In this document: in pieces, positions 1,233 to 33,137 of the stretch | Position numbering within the stretch: position 1 is the first letter of the stretch | How the letters are laid out: each line of letters starts with the position of its first letter | DNA from: Actinoplanes regularis | GTDB lineage: Bacteria; Actinomycetota; Actinomycetes; Mycobacteriales; Micromonosporaceae | Length of the DNA stretch: 64,000 bases | NCBI RefSeq assembly: GCF_900188005.1 | Contig: NZ_FZNR01000005.1 | Location: forward strand, 62,001 to 126,000 | Direction of reading: 5' to 3' | Program-made: the position numbers and the translations under genes | Notes under the pieces: generated by a model | Seen by the model: the letters and a program-made list of their open reading frames with translations, nothing else | Database searches by the model: none | Told to the model about the DNA's origin: nothing

Positions 1233-2095
1233 CCCTTGAACCCCGTGAGCGTGATGCCCTGCACGAACGCGCGCTGGGCGAAGAAGAAGATGATGATCAG
1301 TGGCGCCATGGCCAGCACCGTCGCGGCGGTGACCAGGTTCCAGTCGATGTGGTGGACGGTCCGGAACGACGCCAGGCCGAGCGTCAGGGTCCAGGAGTTC
1401 TCGTTCTCGCTGGTGTAGAGCAGCGGCCCGTAGTAGTCGTTCCAGCAGAAGAAGAACTGGAACAGGCCGGCCGCCGCGATGCCCGGCCGGGCCATCGGCA
1501 GCACCACCCGCAGCAGCGTGCGCCACTCGCCGCAGCCGTCGACCCGGGCCGCGTCCAGATATTCGCCCGGGATTGTCAGCAGGAACTGGCGCAGCAGGAA
1601 GATGCAGAACGCGTCACCGAACAGCGCCGGGATGATCAGCGGCGCGAGCGAGCCGGTCAGGCCGTAGCGCGCCCACATCAGGTAGAGCGGGACGGTCACC
1701 ACCTGCGGTGGCAGCATCATCACGCAGATCACGACGAGGAAGAGGGCGTTGCGGCCGCGGAATCTCAACTTCGCGAGGGCGTACGCGGCGGGCACGCTCG
1801 ACGCCAGCGTCAGCACCGTCGCCGTCACTGCGTAGAGGACCGTGTTGAGCAGGTAGTGCGGCAGCGGGGTCGCTTCGAAGACCTTGACGTAGTTCTCCGG
1901 GTGCCACGTGTTCGGCCAGTAGTCGCTGGTCAGCGCCTGGTTGCTGGTCATCAGCGAGAGCAGGACGAGGTAGGCGACCGGGGTGATGAACATGACGGCC
2001 AGCGCGATCGCGATGCTGTGCCGCGCGACCCAGGCGAGCCGGATCTGCCGTCTCTCCCGGACCGCGACGCGCGGCCGTTCCAGGACCATGGTCAC
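1229..2095 (-). CDS. ABC sugar transporter permease, MalG type (CsnG-like)
   Basis: Inner-membrane permease of a CUT1 carbohydrate importer, 288 residues with about six membrane helices. The EAA loop, which contacts the ATPase, is visible near residue 190 as YLDAARVDGCGEWRTLLRVV. The start chosen is GTG 2095-2093, overlapping the stop of the preceding permease (GTGA) and preceded by GGAGG; an in-frame ATG at 2089 is the alternative. It pairs with the permease at 2092-3018 and the lipoprotein at 3022-4338. No ATPase gene is in the operon, as is usual in actinomycetes, where a shared MsiK-type ATPase serves many importers. Confidence 0.92.
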   Translation of the reverse strand: MTMVLERPRVAVRERRQIRLAWVARHSIAIALAVMFITPVAYLVLLSLMTSNQALTSDYWPNTWHPENYVKVFEATPLPHYLLNTVLYAVTATVLTLASSVPAAYALAKLRFRGRNALFLVVICVMMLPPQVVTVPLYLMWARYGLTGSLAPLIIPALFGDAFCIFLLRQFLLTIPGEYLDAARVDGCGEWRTLLRVVLPMARPGIAAAGLFQFFFCWNDYYGPLLYTSENENSWTLTLGLASFRTVHHIDWNLVTAATVLAMAPLIIIFFFAQRAFVQGITLTGFKG

Positions 2096-3018
2096 GATTC
2101 CTCCCCGGAGAACGCCTTCGCGCGGCGCAGCAGGATGACGGTGACCGCGAGCGCGACCACGAAGAGCGCGATGGCCAGGGCGTTCGCGTAGCCCAGCGCG
2201 TTGTAGCGGAACCCGGAGGTGTAGAGCCAGAGCGGGTAGGTGAACGTGGAGCCCTCCGGATAGCCGAAGGACTGGGAGATGCCGGCGCCGACGGTGGCCT
2301 GCCCGCTGGCGATCGAGCCGGCCACCGCCGCCTGGTCGAAGTACTGCAGCGTGTAGATCACGCCGGTGACCGCCGCGAAGAGGATCACCGGGCGGATCGA
2401 CGGCAGCGTGATCGACCGGAACTTGTGCCAGGCGTTCGCGCCGTCGAGTGACGCGGCCTCGTAGAGGCTCTCCGGGACGCCCAGCACCGCCGCCAGGAAG
2501 ATGATCATCAGGTCGCCGCAGGCCCACAGGCCGAGCAGGACCAGCGACGGCTTCGCCCAGGCCGGAGAGTTGAACCAGAGCGGGCCGTTGATGCCGATCT
2601 TCTCCAGCAGATGGTTCACCGGGCCGGTGCCCGGTTTGAGGAGGTAGACGAAGGCGATGGTGGCGGCCACCGACGGGACCAGCGACGGCAGGTACAGGAT
2701 CGTACGGAAGAAGCCCGCCCCTCGCTTGAGCTGCGCCAGCAGCATCGCCAGCCCGATGGTGAAGATGATCCGCACCGGAACGAAGACCATCACCATCCAC
2801 AGCGTGTTACGCACCGCCTGGAGCAGGAACGGGTCGTCCGCCATCTGCCGGTAGTTGCTCAGCCCCACCCACTGCGGCACGGAGAGCAGGTCGAACTTCG
2901 TGAACGAGAAGTAGACCGCCGAGATCAGGGGATAGCCGAAGAACACCGCGATGCCGATCAGCGCGGGCGCCAGGAACGAGAACGTGGTCAGCCCCCGGCG
3001 CAGCCGTACGCCGTCCAT
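2092..3018 (-). CDS. ABC sugar transporter permease, MalF type (CsnF-like)
   Basis: Integral membrane permease of 308 residues, about six helices, with the EAA-loop segment SLYEAASLDGANAWHKF around residue 200. It forms the heterodimeric channel with the downstream MalG-type permease. It starts only 3 bases after the stop of the binding-protein gene and overlaps the next gene by 4 bases, so the whole transporter is one transcription unit. Substrate inferred from the chitosanase neighbourhood: glucosamine oligomers. Confidence 0.92.
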   Translation of the reverse strand: MDGVRLRRGLTTFSFLAPALIGIAVFFGYPLISAVYFSFTKFDLLSVPQWVGLSNYRQMADDPFLLQAVRNTLWMVMVFVPVRIIFTIGLAMLLAQLKRGAGFFRTILYLPSLVPSVAATIAFVYLLKPGTGPVNHLLEKIGINGPLWFNSPAWAKPSLVLLGLWACGDLMIIFLAAVLGVPESLYEAASLDGANAWHKFRSITLPSIRPVILFAAVTGVIYTLQYFDQAAVAGSIASGQATVGAGISQSFGYPEGSTFTYPLWLYTSGFRYNALGYANALAIALFVVALAVTVILLRRAKAFSGEES

Positions 3019-3021
3019 GGC

Positions 3022-4338
3022 TCAGCCGCCCAGCGTCATGACGCTGTTGATCTGCTTGTCCGCGTCGGCCAGCCCGCCGTCCAGGTCGGCCACCTTGCCG
3101 GACTGGTACTTGATCAGGAACTGCTGGAACGTCTCCTGATAGGCGGGGCCGGACGCGGACGGCGGCGAGGTCATCGAGTTCGGGTTGTTGAAGATGTCGA
3201 TGAACGCCTTGAAGTCCGGGTCCGCGTTCAGGGCCGGGTCGGCGATCGACTTCGTGGTGGTCGGCACGTTCTTGATCAGCCCGGCGAGCTTGGTGACCGC
3301 CGCGTCGTCCGTGGTCAGGTACTTGATCAGCTCCCAGGCCGCCTCGGGGTTCTTGGCGTTCTTGGAGATGCCCATGATGTTGCCGGTGACGTAGCCGCCG
3401 CCGTAGCGGGCCGGGTCGCTGGTCGGCAGCGGGGCCACGCCGTACTTCAGCTTCGGCGCCTGGTCCTTGAGGAACGCCAGGCGGTACTCGGCATCGATGT
3501 TGATCGCCACCTGACCCTTCTGGAACGCGTTGTCGGCGCTGAACTCGTCGCCGAGGCCGGCCTTGAATTTGGTCAGGTTGTCGTAGCCGTACCAGTCGAC
3601 CAGGTCTTTCTGCCAGGTCAGCAGCGTCTTCCAGTTCGGGTCGGTGCCGACCGCGCTCTTGCCGTCGCCGGTCAGCCACTTGGCGCCGGTGGCCGGTGCC
3701 AGGTGCGCGGCCGCGTTCTCGTAGAAGTCGTAGAGCGGCAGGAAGCCGACCTGCTTGAGCGAGCCGTCCGGGTTCCTGACGGTCAGCTTCTTGGCGTCCT
3801 CGGTGAGCTCGGCGAGGGTCTTCGGCGGTCCGGCGATCCCGGCCTTGGCGAACAGGTCCTTGTTGTAGTACATCCCGTACGCGTCGGCCAGGAACGGCAT
3901 CGCGCACCGCTTGCCGTCGAACTCGGTGTACGACCTGGTGGTCACGTTGAGCTGCCCGAGATCCACCCTGTCCCGCTCGAGGTAGGGCTTCAGGTCCACC
4001 CACGCCCCGGACGAGCAGAACTTGCCGACGATGTCGGTGGAGTAGGAGAGCCCGACGTCCGGCCCGTTGCCGGCGCCGATCGCCTGGGTGACCTTCGAGT
4101 CGTCCTGTCCGGACTTGACGGTCACCTTGATGGCCGGGTGGCCGGTCTGGAAGTCCGCCACGACCTGCTCGATGGCCTGGGCCTCACGCTCGGTGAAGAA
4201 GTGCCACAGCTCGACGTTCCCGGCGACCCGGGTCCCGGGATCGGCGACCTTGTTCTCCTTCGGGGCGGGGGTGCAGGCGGTGGTCAACAGAACGGCGGTA
4301 CCCAGGGCGAAAAGGGTACGAGGGATCCTTGTGTTCAC
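3022..4338 (-). CDS. Extracellular solute-binding lipoprotein, family 1 (CsnE-like)
   Basis: Substrate-binding lipoprotein of the importer, 438 residues. The signal peptide ends in the lipobox LTTAC (Cys22), giving a membrane-anchored lipoprotein on the outer face. The body has the family-1 fold: VELWHFFTEREAQAIEQV, then GPDVGLSYSTDIVGKF and ADAYGMYYNKDLF. The start is a GTG with GAGAGG upstream. The gap to the ROK repressor gene is 23 bases and to the first permease 3 bases. The ligand cannot be read from sequence; chitosan-derived oligomers are the best contextual guess. Confidence 0.9.
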   Translation of the reverse strand: MNTRIPRTLFALGTAVLLTTACTPAPKENKVADPGTRVAGNVELWHFFTEREAQAIEQVVADFQTGHPAIKVTVKSGQDDSKVTQAIGAGNGPDVGLSYSTDIVGKFCSSGAWVDLKPYLERDRVDLGQLNVTTRSYTEFDGKRCAMPFLADAYGMYYNKDLFAKAGIAGPPKTLAELTEDAKKLTVRNPDGSLKQVGFLPLYDFYENAAAHLAPATGAKWLTGDGKSAVGTDPNWKTLLTWQKDLVDWYGYDNLTKFKAGLGDEFSADNAFQKGQVAINIDAEYRLAFLKDQAPKLKYGVAPLPTSDPARYGGGYVTGNIMGISKNAKNPEAAWELIKYLTTDDAAVTKLAGLIKNVPTTTKSIADPALNADPDFKAFIDIFNNPNSMTSPPSASGPAYQETFQQFLIKYQSGKVADLDGGLADADKQINSVMTLGG

Positions 4339-4361
4339 TTTGACCTCTCAGAGGTGAGGGT

Positions 4362-5534
4362 TCAGCTGTCGCGGATGGCGGCGATCAGGGCGTCACGTAC
4401 CGTGGCGAGTCCGGCGTCGAGCGCGCCGAGCAGCACGGCGTCGTCGTCGACGGTGGTGACCGCGACCGAGCACTCCAGCGGGGCGGCCCGGCGGAACGCG
4501 TCGGTCACGGCGGTGAGCAGCGGGGCGCCGCCGGCCTGGGCGATCGGGCCGGCCAGCACCACGAGGTAGGGGTCGAGGACCGCGGTGACCGCGGCCAGAC
4601 CGATCACGATCCGGTCGGCCAGGGCGGTCAGGAACTCGCCGGGCTCGGCCGCCGCGACGGCGACCACCTCGGCGGGGGTGTCGCCGCTGATCCCGTTCTC
4701 CCGGGCCAGGTCCAGGATCGCGCCACCGCCGAACAGGTCCTGCAGGTCGAGCTTGCGGTGGCTGGAGTCGGGGGAGTAGAGCGGCATGTAGCCGATCTCG
4801 CCGGCGCCGCCGCGGGTGCCGCGCAGCAGCGTTCCGTTGATGTCGATGGCCAGACCGAGGCCGTCCTGGCCGATCCAGAGCAGCGCGAAGCCCTCGGCGT
4901 CGCGGCCGGTGCCGCGTTCGCGCTCGGCGACCGCGGCCAGGTTGACGTCGTTGTCGACGCCGACATCCGTGCCGAGCGCGGCGGCGATCTCCGGCACCAG
5001 GCCGGGGCGGGCGAAACCGGGCACGTCGACGAGGCGGATGGTCTCGGTCTTCGGGTCGTACGAACCGGGAACGCCCAGTCGCACGTGCCGGATCCGGTCG
5101 CCCGGCACCGCGGCCCGCTCGCGAAGTTGGTCGACCACGTCGGCCAGGGCGGCCACCGGGTCGGCGGCGAGGAAGTCGACGCGGGACTCGAACCGGGCCC
5201 GAACCGCGCCGGTCAGGTCGCAGAGCGCGGCCGCGACCGACGGGGTGCGGCTGGTGCCGATGTCACGCACGGAGACGGCCGCCACGTACGCCGCGTCCGG
5301 GTTGGCCGAGTAGATCTCCGCGTTCGGCCCCGGGCGGCCGCTGTCGTGCCCGACGATGTGGACCAGTCCGGCCTCGGTCAACCGGCGCAGCATCTCGGAG
5401 ATGGTCGGTGTGGACAGCGCGGTCAGCTTGCGCAGATCGGTCCGGGTGAGCATGCCCGGGTCGAGCAGAAGCGCCAGCGCCGCGCTCTCGTTCATGGCGC
5501 GGAGCAGCTTGGACGAGCCGGCCAGACGCGTCAA
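4362..5534 (-). CDS. ROK-family transcriptional repressor (CsnR-like)
   Basis: N-terminal winged helix-turn-helix (GSSKLLRAMNESAALALLL, then LTRTDLRKLTALSTPTISEM) followed by a sugar-kinase-like ROK domain with DNDVNLAA and GAGEIGYMPL. The frame stays open upstream to 5606 and an ATG lies at 5579, but a good promoter (TTGACA 5606-5601, TAACTAT ending at 5578) overlaps that ATG, so the real start is probably downstream. TTG 5534, six bases after a G-run and just before RLAGSSKLL, gives the usual ROK N-terminus and 390 residues. As first gene of the csn-like operon it is probably autoregulated through the palindrome at 5558-5572. The effector is presumably a glucosamine oligosaccharide (inference). 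Confidence 0.88.
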   Translation of the reverse strand: MTRLAGSSKLLRAMNESAALALLLDPGMLTRTDLRKLTALSTPTISEMLRRLTEAGLVHIVGHDSGRPGPNAEIYSANPDAAYVAAVSVRDIGTSRTPSVAAALCDLTGAVRARFESRVDFLAADPVAALADVVDQLRERAAVPGDRIRHVRLGVPGSYDPKTETIRLVDVPGFARPGLVPEIAAALGTDVGVDNDVNLAAVAERERGTGRDAEGFALLWIGQDGLGLAIDINGTLLRGTRGGAGEIGYMPLYSPDSSHRKLDLQDLFGGGAILDLARENGISGDTPAEVVAVAAAEPGEFLTALADRIVIGLAAVTAVLDPYLVVLAGPIAQAGGAPLLTAVTDAFRRAAPLECSVAVTTVDDDAVLLGALDAGLATVRDALIAAIRDS

Positions 5535-5557
5535 CGGGGCCCCCGGAGAGATAGGCA

Positions 5558-5572
5558 AACTGTTTAACAGTT
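5558..5572. promoter_or_regulatory. Palindromic operator candidate AACTGTT-T-AACAGTT
   Basis: A perfect 15-bp inverted repeat, 7-base arms around one T, placed 5 bases after the -10 hexamer of the operon promoter, where a bound ROK repressor would block initiation. A related sequence sharing TTAACAGT (about 11 of 15 positions) lies at 5640-5654 between the -35 and -10 of the chitosanase promoter. Confidence 0.6.
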
Positions 5573-5577
5573 GGCTC

Positions 5578-5606
5578 ATAGTTAGGCACTGCTCGATCCG
5601 TGTCAA
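5578..5606 (-). promoter_or_regulatory. Promoter of the ROK/ABC/GH4 operon
   Basis: On the - strand, TTGACA at 5606-5601 is followed after 17 bases by AACTAT at 5583-5578 (16 bases to TAACTA). Transcription would start near 5571, inside the palindrome at 5558-5572. Sequence inference only. Confidence 0.6.
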
Positions 5607-5632
5607 GAGCCGAACCCATCGACGGTTCAGGA

Positions 5633-5661
5633 TTGATAAAGCTACTTAACAGTCGTAGAGT
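5633..5661 (+). promoter_or_regulatory. Chitosanase promoter with embedded half-operator
   Basis: TTGATA at 5633-5638, 17-base spacer, TAGAGT at 5656-5661. The spacer holds TTAACAGT (5646-5653), the conserved half of the ROK palindrome, suggesting the divergent chitosanase is controlled by the same repressor. Confidence 0.5.
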
Positions 5662-5712
5662 CCGTCCCCAACGCGCGCGCCGTCCCCCTCACCCCCTCCA
5701 TCGAGGAGCGCC

Positions 5713-6900
5713 ATGAATCGCGTCAGGACAGTCGCCTACGCCGCATTGTCCCTGGTCATCCCGGGTGCCGCCGTGGTCTTCGGACTACTCCCGGCCAGCG
5801 CTGCCACGGCCGGGCCGATCAGGGGCCTGGGCGGCAAATGCATCGACGTCGCCGGCTCCGCCACCGCCAATGGAACCGCCGTTCAGCTCTACGACTGCAA
5901 CGGCACCGCCGCGCAGCAGTGGACCGTCGGGAACACCGACGCGACCATCCGCGCGCTGGGCAAGTGCATGGACGTCACCGCCGCCTCGACGGCCAACGGC
6001 GCCAAGATCCAGCTGTACGACTGCAACGCCACCGGCGCGCAGAAATGGACCGTCAGCAACGGCACACTGATCAACACCGCGTCGGGCAAGTGCCTCGACG
6101 TCACCGGAAAGAGCACCGCCAACGGGACCAGGTTACAGATCTGGACGTGCGCCGGTGGCACGAACCAGACTTGGACCATGCCCGGTGGATCCACCCCGAC
6201 CGGTAAGAATCTGGACGATCCCGCGAAGAAGGACGTCGCCATGCAGATCGTCTCCGCGGCCGAGAACTCCTCGCTCGACTGGCGGGCCCAGTTCTCCTAC
6301 ATCGAGGACATCGGCGACGGCCGCGGCTACACGGCCGGCATCATCGGCTTCTGCTCGGGCACCGGCGACATGCTGGAACTGGTCGAGGCGTACACCGCCA
6401 CGAAGCCGTCCAACGTGCTCGCCAGATACCTGCCCGCGCTGCGCGCCGTCAACGGCACCGACTCGCACGCCGGCCTCGACCCGAACTTCCCGAGGGACTG
6501 GCGGACCGCGGCGGCCGACCCGGTGTTCCAGGCCGCGCAGGAGTCCGAGCGGGACCGGGTGTACTTCAACCCGTCGGTCCGCGACGGCAAGTCCGACGGC
6601 GTCCGGGCGCTCGGCCAGTTCGCCTACTACGACGCCGCGGTCGTGCACGGGTACGAGGGCATGCGGGCGATCCGCAGCCGGGCCCTGGCCAAGGCCAGGC
6701 CGCCGGCCCAGGGCGGCGACGAGCGCGCCTGGCTCAACGCGTTCCTGGACGAACGGGTGGTCGAGATGAAGAAGGAGGAGGCGCACTCGGACACCAGCCG
6801 GATCGACACCGCCCAGCGGGTCTTCCTCAACAACGGCAACTTCGACCTGAACACACCGCTGGACTTCAAGGTCTACGGGGATCCGTACCACATCGGCTGA
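5713..6900 (+). CDS. Secreted GH46 chitosanase with N-terminal ricin-type (CBM13) domain
   Basis: Extracellular endo-chitosanase of 395 residues. A signal peptide (about residues 1-31, ending PASA-A) is followed by a ricin B beta-trefoil (residues 35-157) with three repeats of the GKCxDV...LYDC...QxWT pattern, then the GH46 domain (168-395). The catalytic acid and base by alignment with the Streptomyces N174 enzyme are Glu184 (SAAENSSLDW) and Asp202 (DIGDGRGYTAG). GAGGAG lies just ahead of the ATG. It cuts chitosan outside the cell, and the divergent ABC importer presumably takes up the products. Many characterised GH46 enzymes lack the N-terminal binding module. Confidence 0.95.
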   Translation: MNRVRTVAYAALSLVIPGAAVVFGLLPASAATAGPIRGLGGKCIDVAGSATANGTAVQLYDCNGTAAQQWTVGNTDATIRALGKCMDVTAASTANGAKIQLYDCNATGAQKWTVSNGTLINTASGKCLDVTGKSTANGTRLQIWTCAGGTNQTWTMPGGSTPTGKNLDDPAKKDVAMQIVSAAENSSLDWRAQFSYIEDIGDGRGYTAGIIGFCSGTGDMLELVEAYTATKPSNVLARYLPALRAVNGTDSHAGLDPNFPRDWRTAAADPVFQAAQESERDRVYFNPSVRDGKSDGVRALGQFAYYDAAVVHGYEGMRAIRSRALAKARPPAQGGDERAWLNAFLDERVVEMKKEEAHSDTSRIDTAQRVFLNNGNFDLNTPLDFKVYGDPYHIG

Positions 6901-6967: not shown

Positions 6968-7486
6968 TCAGTCACAGGCGGTGCCGTCGCCGTCGGCGTC
7001 GAGCCCCTGAACGTCCCGGCCGGCCACGATCAGGCCGGTGAAGCCGTGCGCCGCGAGCCAGGAGCACTTGCCCGCGGCGCCGGTGACACCGTCGGGGAAG
7101 GCCAGCGGGACGCACTGGGTCCGCGTTCCGTAGTTGTGGTCGCAGCCGTCGACGAAGGCCGGGACCTTCAGCGGGGCCGTCGGGGATCTCCGCATGGGCT
7201 GCGGGCCGGCGGTGGGTCCGTCGGCGAAGTGCTGGACGAACGGGGCCGGCGAGACGGCGGGCACGGCGGAAGCCGTCGCGGTCCGGCCCGGCCGCGCGGC
7301 CGGCGGCGGTGAGCCCGATTCGGCCGGTGCGGGCGAATAGTACGGCCAGGTCGAATCGGTGACAGCCGGAGCGGCCGCCACCGAGGACGGCGTGAGCGCG
7401 GCCCGGCCCAGCGTCACCAGCACCGCCGCGGCGGCTGCCACCAGGGCGACCACCCCGGCCAGCGTCAGCACGCGCCGGATCCTCAT
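6968..7486 (-). CDS. Small exported protein with C-terminal Excalibur-type motif
   Basis: 172 residues. An N-terminal membrane/signal segment (residues 4-30) is followed by a Pro/Ala/Ser-rich stretch (about 45-110), then a short Cys-containing domain ending in GLDADGDGTACD. That ending matches the DxDxDGxxCE-like calcium loop of the Excalibur family. The ATG overlaps the stop of the copper-oxidase gene (ATGA), making it the last gene of the five-gene glycan operon. The function is not known. Context suggests a surface protein that assists or is a target of the glycan machinery. Confidence 0.75.
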   Translation of the reverse strand: MRIRRVLTLAGVVALVAAAAAVLVTLGRAALTPSSVAAAPAVTDSTWPYYSPAPAESGSPPPAARPGRTATASAVPAVSPAPFVQHFADGPTAGPQPMRRSPTAPLKVPAFVDGCDHNYGTRTQCVPLAFPDGVTGAAGKCSWLAAHGFTGLIVAGRDVQGLDADGDGTACD

Positions 7487-9606
7487 CCGACGTGGACCCA
7501 CCGGGCGACCGACGGGACCCCGTTCGTGCCGACCACGAACAGCATGTACCAGCCGGGCGGCGCGATGTTCGGGTTCGAGGTCAGGTTGAGCCCGATCGTG
7601 TCGCCGTTCACCGACATCGGCAGGTCGACGAACCGCTGGTTCGGGTCGCTGGAGTGGGTCACGGCCCCGGGGCGGATCAGTTCGGCCCTGAGGATCGGGT
7701 CGTCGACCGTGATGGTGTGGGTGGACCCGTACGCCCACTCGTTCTCCGAAATGTGAAGGATCTGCGGCCGGGCGCCGTGGAACAGGTACGGCGGCGAGTA
7801 GATCGACAGGCGCATGTCGAACGAGCCGTTGCCCGGGTTGTCGCCGACCGACATGACCCGGCCGTCGGGCAGCAGGAACGCGGACGAGTGGTAGGTGCGC
7901 GGCACCGGATCGGTGGCCAGGCCGGGAGTGAACGTGTTGGTGGCCGGGTCGTACATGGACGCCTCATACACCGGATCGGCTCGGTTGTGCAGTCCACCGC
8001 CGGTCTCGAAGACCTTGCCGTCGGGCAGCAGGACGGCTGAGACGTACATCTTGCCCTGGGTCGAGGTCTGCGGGACGCCGCCGGTCAGCGTTCCGGTCGG
8101 CAGCGGCGGCCCGGCCGTGTAGGCGGGATCGGCCCGCTTCAGGTCGATGAGGTCGGTGAGCCGGTTGGCGTCCGGGTTGCTGTCGATGTTGCCACCGCCG
8201 ATCGTGAGCACCTTCTGGTCCTGGGCGGGCGGGAGCAGCACGCTCATCGACTGGTCGCGCTGGTCCTTGTTCTGCAGGCCACCGACCGGTGTGATGGTGT
8301 TCGCGTCGTAGTCGTAGATCGACGAGCCGGTGCCCGGCAGCCCGTTGCCGAACACGTGGCTGCCCGTGTAGAACAGCCGTCCGTCCTGCATGAGGATCAT
8401 CGACGGGTACAGGCCCCAGAAGTTCCACGTCTGGTTCGCCTCGTTCAGGCTCAGCCACCGCGACTCGCTGGTCTTGAAGTACTGGGTGGCGACCGTGCCG
8501 GACGAGTCCTCGCCGAGACCGCCCAGCGCGATCACGTCGCCGTTGCCCATGATCGTGGCCGACGGGTACCAGGAGCCGGCGGTCATGTCGTTGACCCGCG
8601 AGTACGAGCCGGTGGCCGGATCGAAGACGTACGAGTTCTTCAGGCCCTTGTAGCCATGGCTGCCGTCCGCGGCCGGATAGTCCTTGTTGCCGCCCATGAT
8701 CAGCACCCGGCCGTCGGCCAACTGCACATGGCCGGAGCAGAACAGGTCGGCCGGTGTCGGCACGTTGCTGAACGTCCCGGTCTCGGGACGGTAGACGGCC
8801 GTGGTGAACGTCCCGGCCGCGAACGCGTCGGGGTCGTTGCCGGAGCCGGCCACCAGGAGCACGTTGCCGTTCTTGAGCACGACCGCGTGGATGGCGCGGA
8901 CCGGGGAGTTGAACGGCAGCACCTGCCAGACGCCCCTGGTGCAGGCGTCGCCGGCGCTGCAGGACTGCTCGGGCGCCGGCTGGGTGGCGTCGTTCATCTC
9001 GTAGTCGTCGGTCTGCAGGGTGCCGACACCGTAGATGGTGACGCCCCAGACGATCTGGTCGGTGCCGGCCGGCACCTCCGGCGTGCGGACGGTCTTCCGC
9101 GTCCAGGTCGAGGTGACCGGCAGCGTGGCCAGGTCGGTCCAGTACACCCAGCCCTGCGCGACGTCGTGCCGGAACATGGTCATGACCGTGTTCGCGGTGG
9201 TCGTCGTGTACCAGGCGGAGAGGTCGTACCGGTGTCCCGGCGTGACGTTCGGCGCGCACGACGGATTCTCCAGCATCATCGCCTTGCGGTCGCCGTTCGG
9301 CGAGGTCGTGAGCGTGACCCGGATGGCGTTGGCGCCGGTGTGACCGGGGCTGGCCAGGCCGAAGGTGAAGCTCTGGTCACCCCAGCCGGACCTCTCCCAG
9401 CACACCGGGAACCCGGTCGGATCCAGCCCCTCGAGGCCCGGATTGGCGATCAGGTTGGCGCTCGCCCGCGCCGCCCCGGCCGGGACGACCGCGGCTGTCG
9501 CCGCGATGAGCACGAGGATCAGGGCCTGCGCGATTCGCCCGCGGTCCGCGCGACTCAGCCATGGTCGATTCCGGTACGCGATCAGCACCGTCCCACCGCT
9601 GCTCAC
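7483..9606 (-). CDS. Galactose-oxidase-like copper radical oxidase (GlxA-like), secreted or anchored
   Basis: 707 residues. A hydrophobic N-terminal segment (about 25-48) leads to a jelly-roll, CBM-like region (50-200), a kelch beta-propeller (about 210-590) and a C-terminal DUF1929 domain. All copper-site residues of galactose oxidase are present by motif: Cys290 (DLFCSGH) and Tyr347 (SWYPSAT) for the Tyr-Cys cofactor, Tyr572-His573 (RTYHSS) and His651 (VTHSS). An active alcohol oxidase making an aldehyde and H2O2 is therefore likely. The start GTG 9606 overlaps the TGA of the upstream GT2-GtrA gene. In Streptomyces, GlxA acts with the GT2 synthase CslA on a hyphal-tip glycan; here two more glycosyltransferases lie between the GT2 and the oxidase. 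Confidence 0.9.
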   Translation of the reverse strand: MSSGGTVLIAYRNRPWLSRADRGRIAQALILVLIAATAAVVPAGAARASANLIANPGLEGLDPTGFPVCWERSGWGDQSFTFGLASPGHTGANAIRVTLTTSPNGDRKAMMLENPSCAPNVTPGHRYDLSAWYTTTTANTVMTMFRHDVAQGWVYWTDLATLPVTSTWTRKTVRTPEVPAGTDQIVWGVTIYGVGTLQTDDYEMNDATQPAPEQSCSAGDACTRGVWQVLPFNSPVRAIHAVVLKNGNVLLVAGSGNDPDAFAAGTFTTAVYRPETGTFSNVPTPADLFCSGHVQLADGRVLIMGGNKDYPAADGSHGYKGLKNSYVFDPATGSYSRVNDMTAGSWYPSATIMGNGDVIALGGLGEDSSGTVATQYFKTSESRWLSLNEANQTWNFWGLYPSMILMQDGRLFYTGSHVFGNGLPGTGSSIYDYDANTITPVGGLQNKDQRDQSMSVLLPPAQDQKVLTIGGGNIDSNPDANRLTDLIDLKRADPAYTAGPPLPTGTLTGGVPQTSTQGKMYVSAVLLPDGKVFETGGGLHNRADPVYEASMYDPATNTFTPGLATDPVPRTYHSSAFLLPDGRVMSVGDNPGNGSFDMRLSIYSPPYLFHGARPQILHISENEWAYGSTHTITVDDPILRAELIRPGAVTHSSDPNQRFVDLPMSVNGDTIGLNLTSNPNIAPPGWYMLFVVGTNGVPSVARWVHVG

Positions 9607-10799
9607 GCCGTCACCTGTTGCAGGACCCGGGCCCGGTAGATGACCTTGTCGGAGATGAGGAAACGGGCCACGAAGGAGATCATGAGCGTGACCAGGTTCG
9701 CCCAGAGGACCCCGAGGTGCGCGCCGCCGACCAGCAGCGCCAGCAGCGGGATGCGCAGCAGCAGGTCGGCGTTGCCGAGCAGGAAGAACCGGCTGAACCG
9801 GCCCGAGAAACTGCGGTGCGACCGGCGGGAGCGGTAGAGCAGCGTGTCGGTGAGGGCGAAGTTCCACCCGACCGCCACCATGTTCGCGAGCACGGCCGCC
9901 GGCAGGTAGTGCACCCCGGCCAGGTGGTTGAGCGCCCAGAGCGCGGCCTGGTTGGGCAGCAGCCCGGAGACGCCGATCAGCCCGAACATCAGCATCCGCG
10001 ACCGCTGGGCGCCGAAGCGCAGCATCCCGAGGTGCTTCAGGAAGCGGACGCCCTCGGCCATCGACGACTTGGACTCGCCGGCGTGCCGCGGCTGGAACGA
10101 GTACGGCACCTCGACGATCCGGCCGGGACGGTTGCGTACGACCAGCTCCAGCAGGATCTTGTAGCCGAGCGGGCGTAGCTCCTCGACCCCGAGCGAGCTG
10201 GCGCGGATCGCGAATAAGCCGCTCATCGGGTCACTCACCCGCGACAGCGAGTTCCGGAAGAGCATCTTGGTGACGACGGTCGAGCCGCCGGAGACGATCC
10301 GCCGGTATCCGCCGGACAGGCCACCGCGGCTGCCGCCGCCCGCGTACCGGCTGCCGACAACCAGGTCGGCGCCGTCCCGAGCACCCGCCGCGACCAGGTC
10401 GGGCACGATCTCCGGCGGGTGCTGCAGGTCGGCGTCCATGACCACGATCCACTCGCCGCGGGCCAGGCGCATGCCCTCGACGACCGCGCCGCCGAGCCCG
10501 CCGGCGCCGTTCGCACGGTGGTGCACGGTCACCGGGATCGGGCAGGCCTCCGCCACCTGCCTGATCACCTCGGGGGTGTCGTCGGTGCTGTCGTCCACGA
10601 ACACGATCTCGGTCTCGCCGGCCGGCAGCGCCGCGGTGAGCCGTTCGAGCAGCGTGGCGATGTTCTCCCGCTCGTTGAAGGTCGGCACCACGATGGTCTG
10701 GCGCGGCGTGGTCCGCACTGGCAGCTCGCCGATGGTCCCGCGCAGCCTCGCGCGGACCCGATCGGGTCGGATCTCGGTCGGGTCGCTGGTGATGGTCAA
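9603..10799 (-). CDS. GT2 polyprenyl-phosphate sugar synthase fused to GtrA membrane domain
   Basis: 398 residues. Residues 30-260 are a DPM1-like GT2 domain (IVVPTFNERENI, IVFVDDSTDDT, VMDADLQHPPE) that moves a sugar from an NDP donor to polyprenyl phosphate. The C-terminal ~130 residues form a four-helix GtrA domain (ending FLISDKVIYR), often linked with flipping or handling lipid-linked sugars. The start is TTG 10799, overlapping the stop of the GT-C gene (TTGA) with GGAG upstream; no ATG fits. The product probably feeds the GT-C transferase encoded just upstream. The sugar is not predictable. Confidence 0.88.
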   Translation of the reverse strand: MTITSDPTEIRPDRVRARLRGTIGELPVRTTPRQTIVVPTFNERENIATLLERLTAALPAGETEIVFVDDSTDDTPEVIRQVAEACPIPVTVHHRANGAGGLGGAVVEGMRLARGEWIVVMDADLQHPPEIVPDLVAAGARDGADLVVGSRYAGGGSRGGLSGGYRRIVSGGSTVVTKMLFRNSLSRVSDPMSGLFAIRASSLGVEELRPLGYKILLELVVRNRPGRIVEVPYSFQPRHAGESKSSMAEGVRFLKHLGMLRFGAQRSRMLMFGLIGVSGLLPNQAALWALNHLAGVHYLPAAVLANMVAVGWNFALTDTLLYRSRRSHRSFSGRFSRFFLLGNADLLLRIPLLALLVGGAHLGVLWANLVTLMISFVARFLISDKVIYRARVLQQVTA

Positions 10800-12361
10800 C
10801 AGGGTGTCTCCTTGTCCACACGGCGGATCTCGATCCGGCCGTCCTGCGGGCCGAACGAGGCGATCACGGTCGAGTTCGTCAGCAGGGTCCGCACGGTGGG
10901 CAGGCTGTTCGGGTCCTGGCGCATGGCCGGCGTCGAGACGATGTAGTCGACGTCGCACCAGCCGCCGGGCAGCCGCTTCGCGACCGCCGAATCGAGATCG
11001 ATCTTGTAGAACCAGATGACCCTGTCAGGAGGGTGTCCGGCGTTGACATAGTCGAGCCAGAGCACGTCGTCGACCACGACGGTCGCGTCGTCCCGCCCCG
11101 GCCACTGAGCGCGGATGTAGTCGGCGGCCTGCGCGTACGGCGCGTTGTCGTCCGTGCTCAGCGCCCGGCGGTCCCCCACGTACCAGCGCGGGGCCACCAC
11201 CGCGACCGCCAGCGTGATCGCCGCACCGAGCACGGCCCACCGCCACCAGACGAGCCCCGGGCGCAGGGCGACGACGGCCCAGGCGATCACGCCGGCGATC
11301 GCCATCGCGAAGAGCGGGAGGACCTGGACGACGTACATGGCGGGGAGGTAGCCACCCGGTCGCAGGGCGACCAGGACGAGGATGACACCCGCCAGGGCGA
11401 TCGGCCGCACCCGGCGCAGCGCGAGACCGGCGAAGCTCGCCACCGCCCCCGCGATCAGGATCACCGAGTCGTAGTAGAGCCACGAGTGCAGCAGCGACGA
11501 CGCGCCCGACCCGGACGTGAAGACGCTGCCCGAACTCGAGCGGGAGCCGAGCTGGAACTGCCACGCGCCGATCAGCGAGACGTGCCCCGGGCCGGGGAAC
11601 AGCTCGCCGCGCAGCATCGCGTAGAGCGGATAGAAACAGCCGACCAGCACGAGGCCGCTCACGAAGGCGCCGAGCGCCCAGGGCCGGGTCGAGCTGCGGG
11701 CCGAGTTCTGCCACAGGGCCACGAGCACGGCCGGCAGGATGACGGCGATCGTCTCCTTCGACAGGACGGCCACCGCGGCCGCGCCGCCGGCCGCCGCGAA
11801 GTGCCACAGGTGCTTGCGCGGTGACAGGGCCAGCGCGAGCGCCCCGAGGAGCCAGACGACCGCGAACGAATCGAGGTAGATCTGCCGGCCCATGGTCAGG
11901 TAGAGCGGCGACAGGCCGTACGTGATCAGGGCCAGCGAGGCCGCCCAGCGCGGCATGCCGACGCGCCGGCTCACCAGGTAGACCAGCAGCAGGCCGACCG
12001 CCTGGACCGGCAGCATCGCGATCCGTCCGGCGGCCACCGCGGTCAGCGTGGGGGCGAGCAGCGCCGGGATCCAGGAGAGTCCGGCCAGCTGGATCCAGGC
12101 CAGCGGCGGATGGTCGTACCAGTAGGTGTAGTGGGCCAGCCCTCGGCCGTGCTGCACGGCCCAGGCCTGCGCCAGATAGGTTCCCTCGTCGTCGCTGGCC
12201 GCCGGGAAGCCGGTGATGTTCCAGGCCAGCAGCGTGACGATCATCGCGGTGAGACCCACGGCGATGACCAGGTCGGTGTTTGCCTTGCGCTTCTTCGCGC
12301 GTACGTCGTCGGTCCCCGCCACGACGACGGAGGGTGGCTCGGCGAGCTCGATCGTGGTCAC
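10796..12361 (-). CDS. GT-C (GT39/ArnT-like) membrane glycosyltransferase
   Basis: 521 residues with about 11-12 membrane helices. The first extracytoplasmic loop holds the acidic motif AASDDEGTYLAQAW, typical of polyprenyl-P-sugar-dependent PMT/ArnT enzymes, followed by YDHPPLAWIQ. A soluble C-terminal part lies outside. It would transfer a sugar from the lipid carrier made by the GT2-GtrA protein to an acceptor outside the membrane. It overlaps both neighbours by 4 bases. Acceptor unknown; the glycan of the GT2 synthase or a secreted protein are options. Confidence 0.85.
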   Translation of the reverse strand: MTTIELAEPPSVVVAGTDDVRAKKRKANTDLVIAVGLTAMIVTLLAWNITGFPAASDDEGTYLAQAWAVQHGRGLAHYTYWYDHPPLAWIQLAGLSWIPALLAPTLTAVAAGRIAMLPVQAVGLLLVYLVSRRVGMPRWAASLALITYGLSPLYLTMGRQIYLDSFAVVWLLGALALALSPRKHLWHFAAAGGAAAVAVLSKETIAVILPAVLVALWQNSARSSTRPWALGAFVSGLVLVGCFYPLYAMLRGELFPGPGHVSLIGAWQFQLGSRSSSGSVFTSGSGASSLLHSWLYYDSVILIAGAVASFAGLALRRVRPIALAGVILVLVALRPGGYLPAMYVVQVLPLFAMAIAGVIAWAVVALRPGLVWWRWAVLGAAITLAVAVVAPRWYVGDRRALSTDDNAPYAQAADYIRAQWPGRDDATVVVDDVLWLDYVNAGHPPDRVIWFYKIDLDSAVAKRLPGGWCDVDYIVSTPAMRQDPNSLPTVRTLLTNSTVIASFGPQDGRIEIRRVDKETPC

Positions 12362-13644
12362 GCCGGCGCCGCCTCACGCAGGTGCGCCCCCACGTGGGAG
12401 GTCAGCTCCCAGTTGCGGCGGCCCGTGTACTCGCGCCAGACGGCTCGTAGCGCCGCCAGGGCCAGGACAATGGCGTACGGGAAGGCGCCGAGGATCAGGC
12501 GGGCGTAGTGGTGCCACCTGATCCTCAGGTCGTACTCCTTGCCGAAGTCGCGCAGGCCGATCACCTGGAACAGCAGCGTGGCCGCCATCGGCAGCACCGG
12601 CAGGAAGGTGAACAGGGCGACGAGCACGGGCAGTTCGGCCCAGAGCGCGATCGCCACGCCGACCGGGATGACCACGCCGGAGAACGCCTGCACGAACGGG
12701 CCGGTCAGCGTGTAGCGGGCCAGCAGCCGCTGGCGCAGCGCGGGCAGCCGCCGCCACTCGCCCTTGCGCAGGACCTGGAGGAAGCCCTGGTGCCACCGGG
12801 TGCGCTGTTTGAGCAGGCCGTGCAACGAGTGCGGCGTCTCCTCGCGGGTGACGATCGTCGAGTCGTAGGCCACGACCACCTTGGACCCCCGGCTCGACAG
12901 GCGCACCCCCAGGTCACAGTCCTCGGCCAGGCAGGTGCCGTCCCAGCCGTTCGCCCGGCGCAGCACGTCGGTGCGAACGAAGACCGTGTTGCCGCCGAGC
13001 GGGATGAAGCCTTTCTTGGCGTGCAGGTGCAGCCGGCTGCGGAACCAGAAGAAGTACTCCAGGCAGTTGTGCAGGCTGTACCAGCTCGAATGGAAGTTGA
13101 TCAGCTGGACGCCGCCCTGGACGACGTCGGCGTCCGTCGCGCGGAACGCGTGGTCCACATGCTCCAGCAACTCGGGGTGCACCTGATCCTCGGCGTCGAA
13201 CACGCCGACGACGTCGCCGCGCGCGTACGGAAGCGCGGTGTTGAGCGCCCGGGGCTTGTTCTTCACCTCGTTGTGGTCGGTCACCACCAGGATCCGCCCC
13301 GGTGCCGTGCGTGCGACCCGGTCGGCCACCTCGGCTGTCTCCGGGTCGTCGTGCCCGACGATGATGATGATCTCGAAGGCCTCGTGCGTGGACTGGAGCA
13401 ACCTCTCCACGGTGTGCTCCAGGACGGCCTGCTCGTGCCGGGCCGGAACCAGGAGCGAAAAGGTCAGGTGTTGTTCCCCGTCCGGCGGTGCGAACCGCGT
13501 GGCGGCCAGGGTCTCCGGCGTGCGCCAAGCGTGCATCGTCCACCACAGCGTGACCGCTGCGAAGGCCGAGAGAACCACCGAGACGAAAACCATGACGGCG
13601 GCAGCCAATGTCTTATGCCTCTTCCCGAAATCGGCGGGCCCCAC
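12358..13644 (-). CDS. Processive GT2 synthase (cellulose/hyaluronan synthase-like, CslA-like)
   Basis: 428 residues. An N-terminal helix (15-38) is followed by the GT2 catalytic domain with VGVFDAEDQVHPE (DxD-type), GTCLAEDCDLG (TED-type base) and QRTRWHQGF (QxxRW), the signature of processive beta-glycan synthases. Three to four C-terminal helices would form the translocation channel. The GTG start at 13644 is the first in frame; an ATG at 13593 inside the first helix is less likely. It is first of five overlapping genes and divergent from the flavin reductase region. It probably makes an extracellular polysaccharide modified by the downstream products. Confidence 0.88.
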   Translation of the reverse strand: MGPADFGKRHKTLAAAVMVFVSVVLSAFAAVTLWWTMHAWRTPETLAATRFAPPDGEQHLTFSLLVPARHEQAVLEHTVERLLQSTHEAFEIIIIVGHDDPETAEVADRVARTAPGRILVVTDHNEVKNKPRALNTALPYARGDVVGVFDAEDQVHPELLEHVDHAFRATDADVVQGGVQLINFHSSWYSLHNCLEYFFWFRSRLHLHAKKGFIPLGGNTVFVRTDVLRRANGWDGTCLAEDCDLGVRLSSRGSKVVVAYDSTIVTREETPHSLHGLLKQRTRWHQGFLQVLRKGEWRRLPALRQRLLARYTLTGPFVQAFSGVVIPVGVAIALWAELPVLVALFTFLPVLPMAATLLFQVIGLRDFGKEYDLRIRWHHYARLILGAFPYAIVLALAALRAVWREYTGRRNWELTSHVGAHLREAAPA

Positions 13645-14180
13645 TCCCGCCGTTCAGGAAATACACTAACCGTCGTACGTCGATGCCTTTCAAGTCCGCT
13701 GTCGACAATTTTGCAGTACGCTCTGAAAGGTTTTCGAAGCCGAAACATGGCCGCAACGCTAACTCGGACATCCCGGAAATGGTCGGTCAAATGCGCTGGT
13801 AGATCCCCTCTCGGGAGAGCGGATTCCACTGTTGAACTGCGGTAATTGGGCCGAACGGATGACCGGGCATCGATACTTTAGCGGATCTCGGCAGGGCTCG
13901 GCCGTTAATTTCAGAAATGTTGCGCCAGATGGCGTCGGATCTTCTTTCCGAAACATTCGATGAGTATGGCCGAGCCTTTTTCGTGCTCCCGCACCTGGCT
14001 CGTCGTCATGGGTGCGTCCGCCGCCCGCAGCGCGGTCATCACGGCCGCTTCCAGCGCGCCCGGCCGTCGCCTGTCCCTCGGCACGATCCCGACCTCCGGC
14101 ATCAGGATCTCGGGCAGCCGGGAATGGTCCTGCCGGTCCAGAGGTCCGATTACCGCCAGCGACTTCCTCCGATACTGAGC
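13645..14180. other. Intergenic region upstream of the glycan operon
   Basis: About 535 bases without an intact gene. The left half, lower in GC, should contain the promoter of the glycan operon. The right half holds a BlaI-like remnant on the - strand and the leader of the flavin reductase gene. Confidence 0.5.
13911..14102 (-). pseudogene. Remnant of a BlaI/MecI-type repressor
   Basis: A 63-residue frame begins MPEVGIVPRDRRRPGALEAA and continues VMTALRAADAPMTTSQVRE, matching the start of the winged helix of BlaI/penicillinase repressors. The recognition helix and dimerisation part are missing; after VRE the sequence becomes unrelated. It reads as a truncated gene. The assignment rests on about 35 residues. 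Confidence 0.4.
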
Positions 14181-23179: not shown

Positions 23180-24847
23180 CTATTCCGCGCGGTAGACGGC
23201 TCGGTCGAAGTCGGCGTAGCCGCCCTCGGCGCCCAGGTCCTGTACCCAGAGTCCGACGAAGGCACCGGTGAAGCCCCAGGCCTCGGGCTCACCGGGGACC
23301 GCGGTGGCGACGTACTCGTCGGAGAGGGTGGTGGCGTCGAAGGCCCGGCCAAGCTCGTGCCAGCCGGATCCGGCGTCAGGGCTGGTCGTATAAGCGAAGG
23401 TCAGGGCCGGCCCGTCCATGCGAAGACGAAGACCGATCCGCCGTACGTCGCCGAGCGGGATCCGCATGCCCGGTGCCGCCGTGACGCGGCCGGTGTCGCA
23501 GCACAGCACGTCGAGTACCGGTGTGCCGTCGTCGTCGGCGGTCACGTGCAGGTAGTACCAGTTGCGGGTGTTGTAGTACGCGGTGATACCCGCCAACTGC
23601 CGATAGTTGTGCGGCTCGAACTCGCAGACGGCTTCGAAGGTGCACCGTTGTGCTGTCACCCGCCGAGCCACCAGACTCGGCCGGTGCCGGCTCATCGGCG
23701 ACTGACCGCCCCGGATCCGCAGGTACGAGGGGCGGGCGGACAGCTCGACCCAGTCCGGTGTGGCCGGCCGGCGCAGCGTCGACCAGTTGGCGCCCAGCGT
23801 GGGGGCGTCGAAATGGTCGTCCTCGGCCTGCTCGGTGGAGACCGGCCGGGGCGCCGTGGTGACGCCGGCAGGGGCCGGAATCTGCTCGGCCGGTGTGCCG
23901 CCCTGGACGCGGGGCCATCCGCCAGCCGGCCATTCCACCTTCTGCAGGGCGGTCTCGCGTCCGAGGACACACCGGCGCGACGGCTGGTACGGCCGGGCGG
24001 CCAGGTGCGCCAGATACCACTCACCGGCCGGGGTCTGCACCAGACTGCCGTGTCCGGCTTTCTGCAGCGTGAGGTCCGGATCTCCGGCTGAGGTCAGCAT
24101 CGGCCCGGCCGGATCCACCTCGTACTCGCCGAGTAGCCGCCGGGATCGAGCGACGGTGACCTGATGCGTCCAGGTCGTGCCGCCTTCCGCGGTGACCAGG
24201 TAGTACCAGCCGTCCTTGCGGTAGATGTTGGGCGCTTCGGTGAGCCCGACCTCGGTGCCTTCGAAGATGATTTGTTCGGGACCGACCAGCCGGCGTTCCC
24301 GATGGTCGTACCGCTGAATGGAGATGCCCGCGAAGCGGTTACGGCCGGGCCGCCAGTCGGCCCGCATCGACAGCATCCAGGTCGTGCCGTCCTCATCATG
24401 GAACAGCGACGCGTCGAAGCCCCGACCGTGCAAGACCACCGGGTCGGACCACGGGCCGGTGATGTGCCGTGCGGTGACCAGATAGTTCTGTGGGTCCCAG
24501 TATCCGCCCGCGAACGTCGCCACGTCGGTGTACAGCAGGTGGAACAGCCCGTAGGCGTAGGTGAGGTTGGGCGCCCAGACACCGCCCGAGTCCGCGGCGC
24601 CGGTGAGATCCAGAAGACGCTTCTCGCTCAGCACACCGCCCAGCGGCCGCCAGTCGACCAGGTCGGTCGAGTGATGCACCCGCACGCCCGGATACCACTC
24701 GAACGTCGACGTCGCGATGTAGTAATCGGACCCGACCCGCAGGATCGACGGATCCGGATGGAAGCCCGGCAGTACCGGATTCTGGATCATGTGGTGGCCG
24801 GTCCCGCCATCACCGTCGATGGAGGTAGCTGTTTTGGCGATCGTCAT
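23180..24847 (-). CDS. GH43 beta-xylosidase / alpha-arabinofuranosidase
   Basis: 555 residues, no signal peptide, so probably cytoplasmic. The five-blade propeller begins NPVLPGFHPDPS, which carries the catalytic base Asp32; GFDASLFHDEDG has the pKa-modulating Asp and GLTEAPNIYRKDG the general-acid Glu. The C-terminal ~200 residues are the beta-sandwich typical of xylan-acting GH43 enzymes. The start at 24847 has GGAGG eight bases upstream. It would hydrolyse imported xylo-oligosaccharides. It lies 78 bases downstream of the xylanase gene with a hairpin between them. Confidence 0.93.
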   Translation of the reverse strand: MTIAKTATSIDGDGGTGHHMIQNPVLPGFHPDPSILRVGSDYYIATSTFEWYPGVRVHHSTDLVDWRPLGGVLSEKRLLDLTGAADSGGVWAPNLTYAYGLFHLLYTDVATFAGGYWDPQNYLVTARHITGPWSDPVVLHGRGFDASLFHDEDGTTWMLSMRADWRPGRNRFAGISIQRYDHRERRLVGPEQIIFEGTEVGLTEAPNIYRKDGWYYLVTAEGGTTWTHQVTVARSRRLLGEYEVDPAGPMLTSAGDPDLTLQKAGHGSLVQTPAGEWYLAHLAARPYQPSRRCVLGRETALQKVEWPAGGWPRVQGGTPAEQIPAPAGVTTAPRPVSTEQAEDDHFDAPTLGANWSTLRRPATPDWVELSARPSYLRIRGGQSPMSRHRPSLVARRVTAQRCTFEAVCEFEPHNYRQLAGITAYYNTRNWYYLHVTADDDGTPVLDVLCCDTGRVTAAPGMRIPLGDVRRIGLRLRMDGPALTFAYTTSPDAGSGWHELGRAFDATTLSDEYVATAVPGEPEAWGFTGAFVGLWVQDLGAEGGYADFDRAVYRAE

Positions 24848-24866
24848 CGAGGAACCTCCACGGAGG

Positions 24867-24896
24867 GTGGCGCGGCGGTCGAGGCCGCCGCGCCAC
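24867..24896 (-). terminator. Perfect 12-bp hairpin between xylanase and xylosidase genes
   Basis: Stem 24867-24878 with 24885-24896, loop TCGAGG, ending a few bases before the GGAGG of the xylosidase gene. It may terminate part of the xylanase transcripts or stabilise the processed 5' end of the xylosidase mRNA. Confidence 0.6.
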
Positions 24897-24925
24897 AGGT
24901 TGTGATGTCAGGGAGCGGGTCGTTG

Positions 24926-26227
<1,302 letters not shown>

Positions 26228-26311
26228 TTACCCCCTTTGGTCGTACGCGAAATGGAGTAATTGGGGCGACGGCTGGTTACGTACCGTCTTCATTGCGTTC
26301 GGATGAACATC

Positions 26312-26341
26312 TTGACATGCACATCTCCCTATCCCTAACTT
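26312..26341 (+). promoter_or_regulatory. Promoter of the xylo-oligosaccharide importer
   Basis: TTGACA at 26312-26317, 18-base spacer, TAACTT at 26336-26341. Predicted start near 26348, just ahead of the operator at 26366-26376. Confidence 0.5.
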
Positions 26342-26365
26342 GAGCGCCATCTCCCGAAAATCTAC

Positions 26366-26376
26366 CGAAACTTTCG
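26366..26376. promoter_or_regulatory. Operator candidate CGAAA-C-TTTCG
   Basis: Perfect 11-bp inverted repeat downstream of the predicted transcription start and 19 bases before the ATG. LacI-family xylan regulators of streptomycetes (BxlR) are reported to bind CGAA/TTCG repeats; from memory, spacing may differ. No such regulator gene is in the window. Confidence 0.55.
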
Positions 26377-26395
26377 ATAACGGAAGGTGAGCTTC

Positions 26396-27688: not shown

Positions 27689-27690
27689 GG

Positions 27691-28677: not shown

Positions 28678-28680
28678 GAC

Positions 28681-32951: not shown

Positions 32952-33137
32952 GCCTGTTCTTACAGCTCAGCGGTGCTGCAGATATCGACCGTCCGGGACC
33001 ACCGGGGAGCGGACCCGCTCGGCGGCGCCGCCACTGACCAACCCGAGAAAGATCAATCGGATTAGGCCTATCAGGGGACTACGCCCTGACGCTTCCGTCG
33101 GTTATTCGGGCCAGTGAGCTATGGCACCATTCGGTGG

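Follow-up and report, generated by a model that had tools for sequence, protein, structure and literature searches.

Five genes on the minus strand of a 64,000-nucleotide stretch of Actinoplanes regularis DNA (contig NZ_FZNR01000005.1, positions 62,001 to 126,000; hereafter the window) form a conserved cassette, A-B-C-D-E, at window positions 6968-13644 of this 10.0 Mb genome. We found that the cassette is present as a unit in related genomes, that its oxidase gene D keeps the copper ligands of a copper radical oxidase, and that gene E encodes a domain that, in the genomes sampled, was found only together with D. The cassette probably encodes a system for assembling and oxidising a branched cell-surface glycan, in which a branch based on polyprenyl-phosphate sugar (A, B and C) would be combined with an oxidase module (D and E). 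The features are as follows (aa, amino acids).

12358..13644, minus strand: gene A, GT2 membrane glycosyltransferase of 428 aa (probably 416 aa, starting at the TTG at 13608)
10796..12361, minus strand: gene B, multi-pass GT-C-type (PMT-like) transferase, 521 aa, PF02366
9603..10799, minus strand: gene C, GT2 fused to a GtrA membrane domain, 398 aa, TTG start, PF00535 and PF04138
7483..9606, minus strand: gene D, secreted copper radical oxidase, 707 aa, galactose-oxidase early-set domain PF09118 (2.6e-26)
6968..7486, minus strand: gene E, small secreted protein, 172 aa, with a signal or transmembrane helix (residues 6-24), a Pro/Ser/Thr-rich linker and a C-terminal domain
13663..13693, minus strand: putative operon promoter, TTGAAA (13693-13688), 19 nucleotides, TAGTGT (13668-13663)

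Conservation and linkage of the cassette

Co-occurrence was assessed in 60 Actinoplanes genomes and in a class-level sample of 394 genomes. A, B and D (D at at least 75%) occurred in the same 26 Actinoplanes genomes; in the other 34, which do have more distant oxidases, none of the three was found. The E domain was detected in 25 of these 26 genomes, and in the last (G025) D is cut by a contig end. Two genomes, that of the window and G023, hold two copies of the cassette; the second complete A-B-C-D-E set of the window genome (L059, 10490-17360) is 65-81% identical to the first in A to D and 42% in E, and the tree of A places it in another Actinoplanes sub-clade. In the class sample, D at at least 50% was found in 33 genomes, comprising the window genome itself, 14 of a family (f21) treated as Streptomyces since the tree of A clusters its loci with the Streptomyces loci L050 and L055, and 18 of a second family (f20, hereafter the Frankia group) that includes two Frankia records (L057, L058). 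A was present in 32 of the 33, and in the remaining genome (G414, L096) it is split over two frames. Not every first-look candidate of a genome was scored: the genus sample covered at most 19 for D, 29 for A, all for B and 106 for E, and the class sample at most the two best for D, the four best for A and 16 for E. Presence is for that reason more certain than absence.

A adjoins B in all 52 A-bearing loci, on the same strand in 50. Over 32 loci, the protein distances of A to D correlated with one another at 0.89-0.97 (A versus D, r = 0.95), as expected for genes that are physically linked. The genomes are not independent, so these counts are not a significance test, and the simplest reading is that the cassette is gained or lost as a set. 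An earlier interpretation of this stretch, made without database searches (the sequence-only reading), had staked its proposal on the neighbourhood being conserved in relatives, and the cassette is such a conserved unit.

All five open reading frames (ORFs) are uninterrupted at the coordinates listed. High-GC shadow ORFs in other frames overlap every one of them, and the frames were chosen because of family matches and conservation. The four junctions, read from the sequence, bear out the earlier statement that each gene overlaps the next by exactly 4 bases: GTGA at 12361-12358 (A/B), TTGA at 10799-10796 (B/C), GTGA at 9606-9603 (C/D) and ATGA at 7486-7483 (D/E). Four-base gene overlaps are common in actinobacteria and alone prove nothing; that between A and B recurs in 36 of 52 other A-bearing loci, with starts picked mechanically. 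The predicted start codons from A to E are GTG, GTG, TTG, GTG and ATG. The likelier start of A is the TTG at 13608 rather than the GTG at 13644, because of the relatives and because GGAAGAGG lies upstream of that TTG as a better ribosome site, and gene A may be 36 bases shorter than 12358..13644. Upstream of A, CTTGA is invariant and followed by TANNNT in 15 of 15 aligned regions, an alignment restricted to Actinoplanes-type loci with A at at least 78%.

The copper radical oxidase and its partner domain

D comprises a signal-like helix (residues 28-46), an N-terminal domain (about residues 50-215), a kelch propeller and a galactose-oxidase-like early-set domain. The N-terminal domain weakly resembles a carbohydrate-binding module, the sole hint being a CBM_4_9 match below cut-off (0.0028) in one homolog (L065). 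The copper site predicted in the sequence-only reading proved complete across the family: all 52 rows keep C290, Y347, Y572 and H573, and 51 of them keep H651, the exception being a truncated sequence (four fragments were dropped beforehand, and three of the 52 rows are duplicates, L057/L085 and L058/L094). D thus has the Cys-Tyr cofactor pair, axial Tyr and two His of an AA5-like copper radical oxidase, and also a GlxA-like W-Y pair (W346-Y347), with a Trp before the cofactor Tyr. No Trp was found in D at the equivalent of W290, the stacking Trp of galactose oxidase, the aligned stretch being GGLGEDSS.

Profile comparison placed D nearer to GlxA (4unm, 2.1e-84) than to galactose oxidase (about 1e-28). 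On the NCBIfam GlxA equivalog model NF052501, D scored 396 bits, below the cut-off of 800, and its relatives L059, L065 and L091 scored 392, 409 and 394 bits. D also lacks GlxA domain 2, about 112 residues of 4unm (117-228) having no counterpart. Three more galactose-oxidase-like genes of other types (L061, L062 and L063) keep the copper ligands as well, and two of them carry a ricin-B-like repeat tail, judged by reading the sequence.

The C-terminal four-cysteine domain of E (window 6971-7159) ends in LDxDxDGxAC, and G5, C6, Y10, C16, P18, C32, W34, L35, D49, D54 and C62 are invariant in 30 domain rows. E had been described as Excalibur-type; the match covers only 12 residues (160-171) and reaches 15.6 bits, under the cut-off of 22 (E-value 0.021), which leaves a resemblance and not an assignment. 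The domain was matched 27 times in the genus sample and 27 times in the class sample, two in each being the window genome's own, and every match lies beside D or is fused with it. Fusion to the C terminus of D occurs in 17 loci (14 of f21, L050, L055 and A. couchii L056). Weaker matches in the Frankia group stop at model position 50-51, without the DxDGxAC tail. As far as sampled, the E domain is a dedicated partner of D.

The glycosyltransferases

A belongs to the GT2 family (PF13641, 2.4e-42) and has one N-terminal and three C-terminal hydrophobic segments. D99/D100, D150-A-E152, E241-D242 (followed by C243) and the QRTRW motif (Q280-RTR-W284) are invariant in 32 aligned sequences. In structural profile searches its best match was the membrane GT2 6yv7 (8.2e-16), with the bacterial cellulose synthase BcsA (5ej1, 5.8e-10) and ceramide glucosyltransferase also among the matches. 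A had earlier been called a processive GT2; the family assignment stands, and processivity is suggested by the invariant motifs.

B matched PF02366 (1.5e-5, 25.1 bits against a cut-off of 22.7), and its DDEGTY (D57-DEGTY) and YTYWYDHP motifs are invariant in 24 aligned sequences. C combines a GT2 domain (PF00535, 1.2e-29) with a GtrA domain (PF04138, 1.9e-16) and matched the 'Dolichol monophosphate mannose synthase' (DPMS) 5mlz over nearly its whole length (4.5e-80), a GtrA-type protein from Pyrococcus furiosus. These matches make a convincing case that C would be a polyprenyl-phosphate-sugar synthase of the GtrA/DPMS type, in agreement with the lipid-linked sugar synthase proposed in the sequence-only reading. 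C is the least constant member of the cassette.

Gene orders and variants

The order A-B-C-D, with E after D or fused to it, is found in Actinoplanes-type loci and in 12 of the 14 f21 loci, contig ends apart. Two Streptacidiphilus loci have the order D-E-Sco-A-B-C, with a gene for the copper chaperone Sco between D/E and A, and the Frankia group has C-D-Sco-A-B. Of the 18 Frankia-group genomes with D, 12 were fetched; 11 of these have a Sco gene, and the locus of the twelfth ends at a contig edge. The Sco call is based on PF02630 (8.4e-33) in one protein and on BLAST in the others. When flanking ORFs of at least 100 aa were clustered across 23 loci, no further cassette family appeared in more than five of them; Sco was found in four, from Streptacidiphilus and Frankia.

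Seven class genomes outside the Actinoplanes-type, f20 and f21 groups have A-B without D. A GH8 gene lies near A-B in six of these seven loci (L078-L083), in all cases over the Pfam cut-off (E-values 5.1e-37 to 5.3e-28); BcsZ is likewise a GH8 enzyme. Sortase and stand-alone GtrA genes are present in four of the seven (L079, L080, L082 and L083), and in the same four a GT2 gene matches part of C at 34-35% identity. The presence of GH8, GtrA and sortase genes near D-less A-B pairs suggests that B would act on the glycan of A rather than on D or E.

D and E are found with a different set of glycosyltransferases in Micromonospora and Asanoa (L049, 12707-16997; L051, 12598-16843), where they are followed by a GT-C (PMT_2), a GT2 with QRERW and a GH113-type protein. 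Profile comparison detected no similarity between B and the PMT_2 GT-C of these loci, and the similarity between A and the QRERW GT2 is distant only. That D recurs with two different GT2/GT-C pairs supports the view that it works on a GT2/GT-C product.

Proposed function and alternatives

In the system that we propose, A would polymerise, or at least elongate, a beta-glycan from nucleotide sugar at the membrane. C would load polyprenyl phosphate with one sugar, its GtrA domain helping to present that sugar outside, and B, as a GT-C enzyme, would transfer the polyprenyl-linked sugar onto the emerging glycan. D may then act on the decorated glycan, oxidising a primary alcohol or an aldehyde, or may partner the synthase as GlxA does CslA, and the E domain could serve D through anchoring, substrate presentation or maturation. 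Aldehyde cross-linking or adhesion as the purpose of the system is speculation. GlxA itself is described as having no significant activity on galactose or the sugars used by galactose oxidase, with glycolaldehyde turned over (PMC4736821), and an earlier study is cited for the oxidation of primary alcohols by the SCO2837 protein (PMC3543389). In S. lividans, GlxA needs Sco to mature when copper is low (PMC4736821).

Several observations weigh against this proposal. Nine of the 41 A-bearing genomes among the 394 of the class sample are without D at at least 50%, and one locus (L086, genome G076) reads Sco-A-B-C with no D within the 14 kb fetched. Conversely, two genomes, Micromonospora sp. HM5-17 and Asanoa ishikariensis, have D-E with no A found at an E-value of 1e-30. 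C is absent beside B-D in L048, L064 and L067, and L050 keeps only the GtrA half; elsewhere in the genome, G328 (L067) has a 52-58% match to C in pieces, and G451 and G453 have only generic relatives at 35-39%. The best structural matches of A include enzymes not known as processive (6yv7 and ceramide glucosyltransferase). The GT-C assignment of B rests on a weak Pfam score and on motifs, and its only match in the PDB profile search was PMT1 (6p25), at a weak E-value of 0.13.

Three alternatives were considered. D could be mainly a structural or activating partner of synthase A, with oxidation secondary, a reading that we regard as rather unlikely. Removing much of the GlxA ectodomain is reported to lower cellulose synthesis by CslA-GlxA (PMC11022532), and the correlated distances of A and D would suit such a partnership, though they are expected for linked genes. 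The copper ligands and the W-Y pair, however, are kept in all 52 rows (the last His lost in one truncated row), two lineages have a copper chaperone gene linked to D, and D occurs without A in two genomes. A purely structural D is disfavoured because the conservation of ligands and the linkage to Sco would then be unneeded.

We give the same weight to the possibility that A is not processive, such that A, B and C decorate an existing polymer, for example a wall glycan of the teichoic-acid-like kind, which D would then modify. Systems of GT2, GtrA and GT-C proteins are described as decorating wall polymers of Gram-positive bacteria (PMC13390465), and the matches of A to 6yv7 and to ceramide glucosyltransferase fit this reading, but the QRTRW and acidic motifs of A are invariant and the GH8 genes beside D-less A-B pairs recall the hydrolases of glucan synthases, bcsZ and cslZ (PMC11022532). 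Least probable of the three is that B and C form a protein O-glycosylation branch adding sugar to the linker of E or to D while A makes an unrelated polymer: B is PMT-like and the E linker is rich in Pro, Ser and Thr, but A-B adjacency is kept in seven loci without D and E, six of them with GH8 nearby, which ties B to A and not to E. 

Other features of the window

The gene after E encodes a GH46 chitosanase in convergent orientation (5713-6900). It was rejected as a part of the cassette, as no match at an E-value of 1e-4 was found in the 61 loci scanned, with flanks of less than 1 to about 10 kb. The gene fits a chitosan-use locus with the neighbouring ROK and sugar transporter genes, and window 2092-6900 is probably such a locus, containing a sugar-transport permease, a solute-binding protein, a ROK regulator and the GH46 chitosanase with its ricin-B lectin domain. 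A probable xylan-use locus with GH43, GH11 and a sugar ABC transporter lies at 23180-29505. At 33134-36844 lies a gene for a protein of 1236 aa, in which residues 146-380 form a caspase-like (Peptidase_C14) domain.

Comparison with known systems

The closest counterpart in outline is the CslA-GlxA system of Streptomyces, also described with CslZ, for which cellulose synthesis in vitro is reported (PMC11022532); Streptomyces requires glxA for its development (PMC4736821, PMC11022532). In both systems, a secreted copper radical oxidase is genetically coupled to a membrane GT2 that has QxxRW and acidic motifs (PMC11022532, PMC4736821, PMC9040799). A copper supply linked through Sco in some relatives and hydrolase genes beside variants are further likenesses.

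The sequence-only reading had compared the cassette with CslA-GlxA, to which a lipid-linked sugar branch would have been added. We rejected an origin as CslA-GlxA with inserted genes, because the proteins are only distantly similar and a GlxA gene next to a CslA-like gene exists separately in the window genome. This separate GlxA (893.7 bits against the cut-off of 800) lies behind and overlaps a CslA-like GT2 gene (L060, 5890-9575), the latter named CslA from its place beside GlxA and from a CelA match of 73 bits, below cut-off. A is 23.9% identical to that CslA-like protein (L060, 5890-7629) over 326 aa (E-value 7e-6), and the profile alignment of A with CslA spans only the catalytic core, through TED and QxxRW, at a probability of 71%. 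D is 38% identical to the GlxA of its own genome over 409 aa. On these comparisons the cassette resembles CslA-GlxA in outline and is judged not to be a member. A is not a CslA ortholog, and D falls below the GlxA cut-off, lacks domain 2 and has another N-terminal domain. Unlike cslA-glxA-cslZ in the consulted parts of the published descriptions (PMC11022532, PMC4736821, PMC9040799), the cassette adds a GT-C, a GT2-GtrA protein and the E domain. It also differs in having no adjacent GH6 glucanase, the gene after E being the convergent GH46 chitosanase.

The cassette is also similar to the three-component transmembrane glycosylation system gsf of Actinoplanes missouriensis, which likewise has a GT2, a GtrA domain and a transmembrane transferase (PMC13390465). 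Three-component systems presumably transfer a lipid-linked sugar to a polymer outside the cell, and the gsf transferase is, according to the authors, not a GT-C (PMC13390465). Unlike in gsf, GT2 and GtrA are fused in the cassette, and the acceptor would probably be made by the adjacent A. The main text of the gsf paper contains none of the terms 'galactose oxidase', 'copper' and 'Excalibur' (PMC13390465).

Loci that may be related have been described before. A glxA-like cluster of Frankia adjoining sco was noted earlier and called a cslA-glxA cluster (PMC4736821), and extra cslA-glxA loci were reported in S. griseus, S. albus and S. roseosporus (PMC3543389). With its oxidase, Sco and GT2 together, the published Frankia cluster is probably the Frankia-group form of the cassette. 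In the consulted parts of these papers the Frankia and extra Streptomyces clusters are described as cslA-glxA, and GT-C, GT2-GtrA and the E domain go unmentioned (PMC4736821, PMC3543389). We recognised no description of the five-gene set as a unit in the consulted parts of the open-access literature, the nearest being the remark on Frankia sco (PMC4736821) and the extra Streptomyces loci (PMC3543389).

The cassette would be a second case in which a copper radical oxidase is coupled to a glycan synthase, here with a lipid-sugar branch and a dedicated partner domain. It offers candidates for the oxidase substrate (a side-chain sugar) and for a subunit joining oxidase and glycan. Its patchy presence, in 26 of 60 Actinoplanes genomes, provides natural comparisons with and without the cassette, and the association of D with E is a sequence diagnostic for finding such systems. 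More tentatively, and with doubt outweighing confidence, actinobacteria may possess a second, modular class of surface glycan machinery that is coupled to an oxidase and is no ortholog of the cellulose-making CslA-GlxA, in which a branched beta-glycan made by a GT2 and a GT-C would be served by an interchangeable processing module. That module would be either D-E, giving aldehyde-bearing, cross-linkable side sugars, or a hydrolase such as GH8, with D-E recruited at least twice, once to A/B and once to the unrelated GT-C/GT2/GH113 set.

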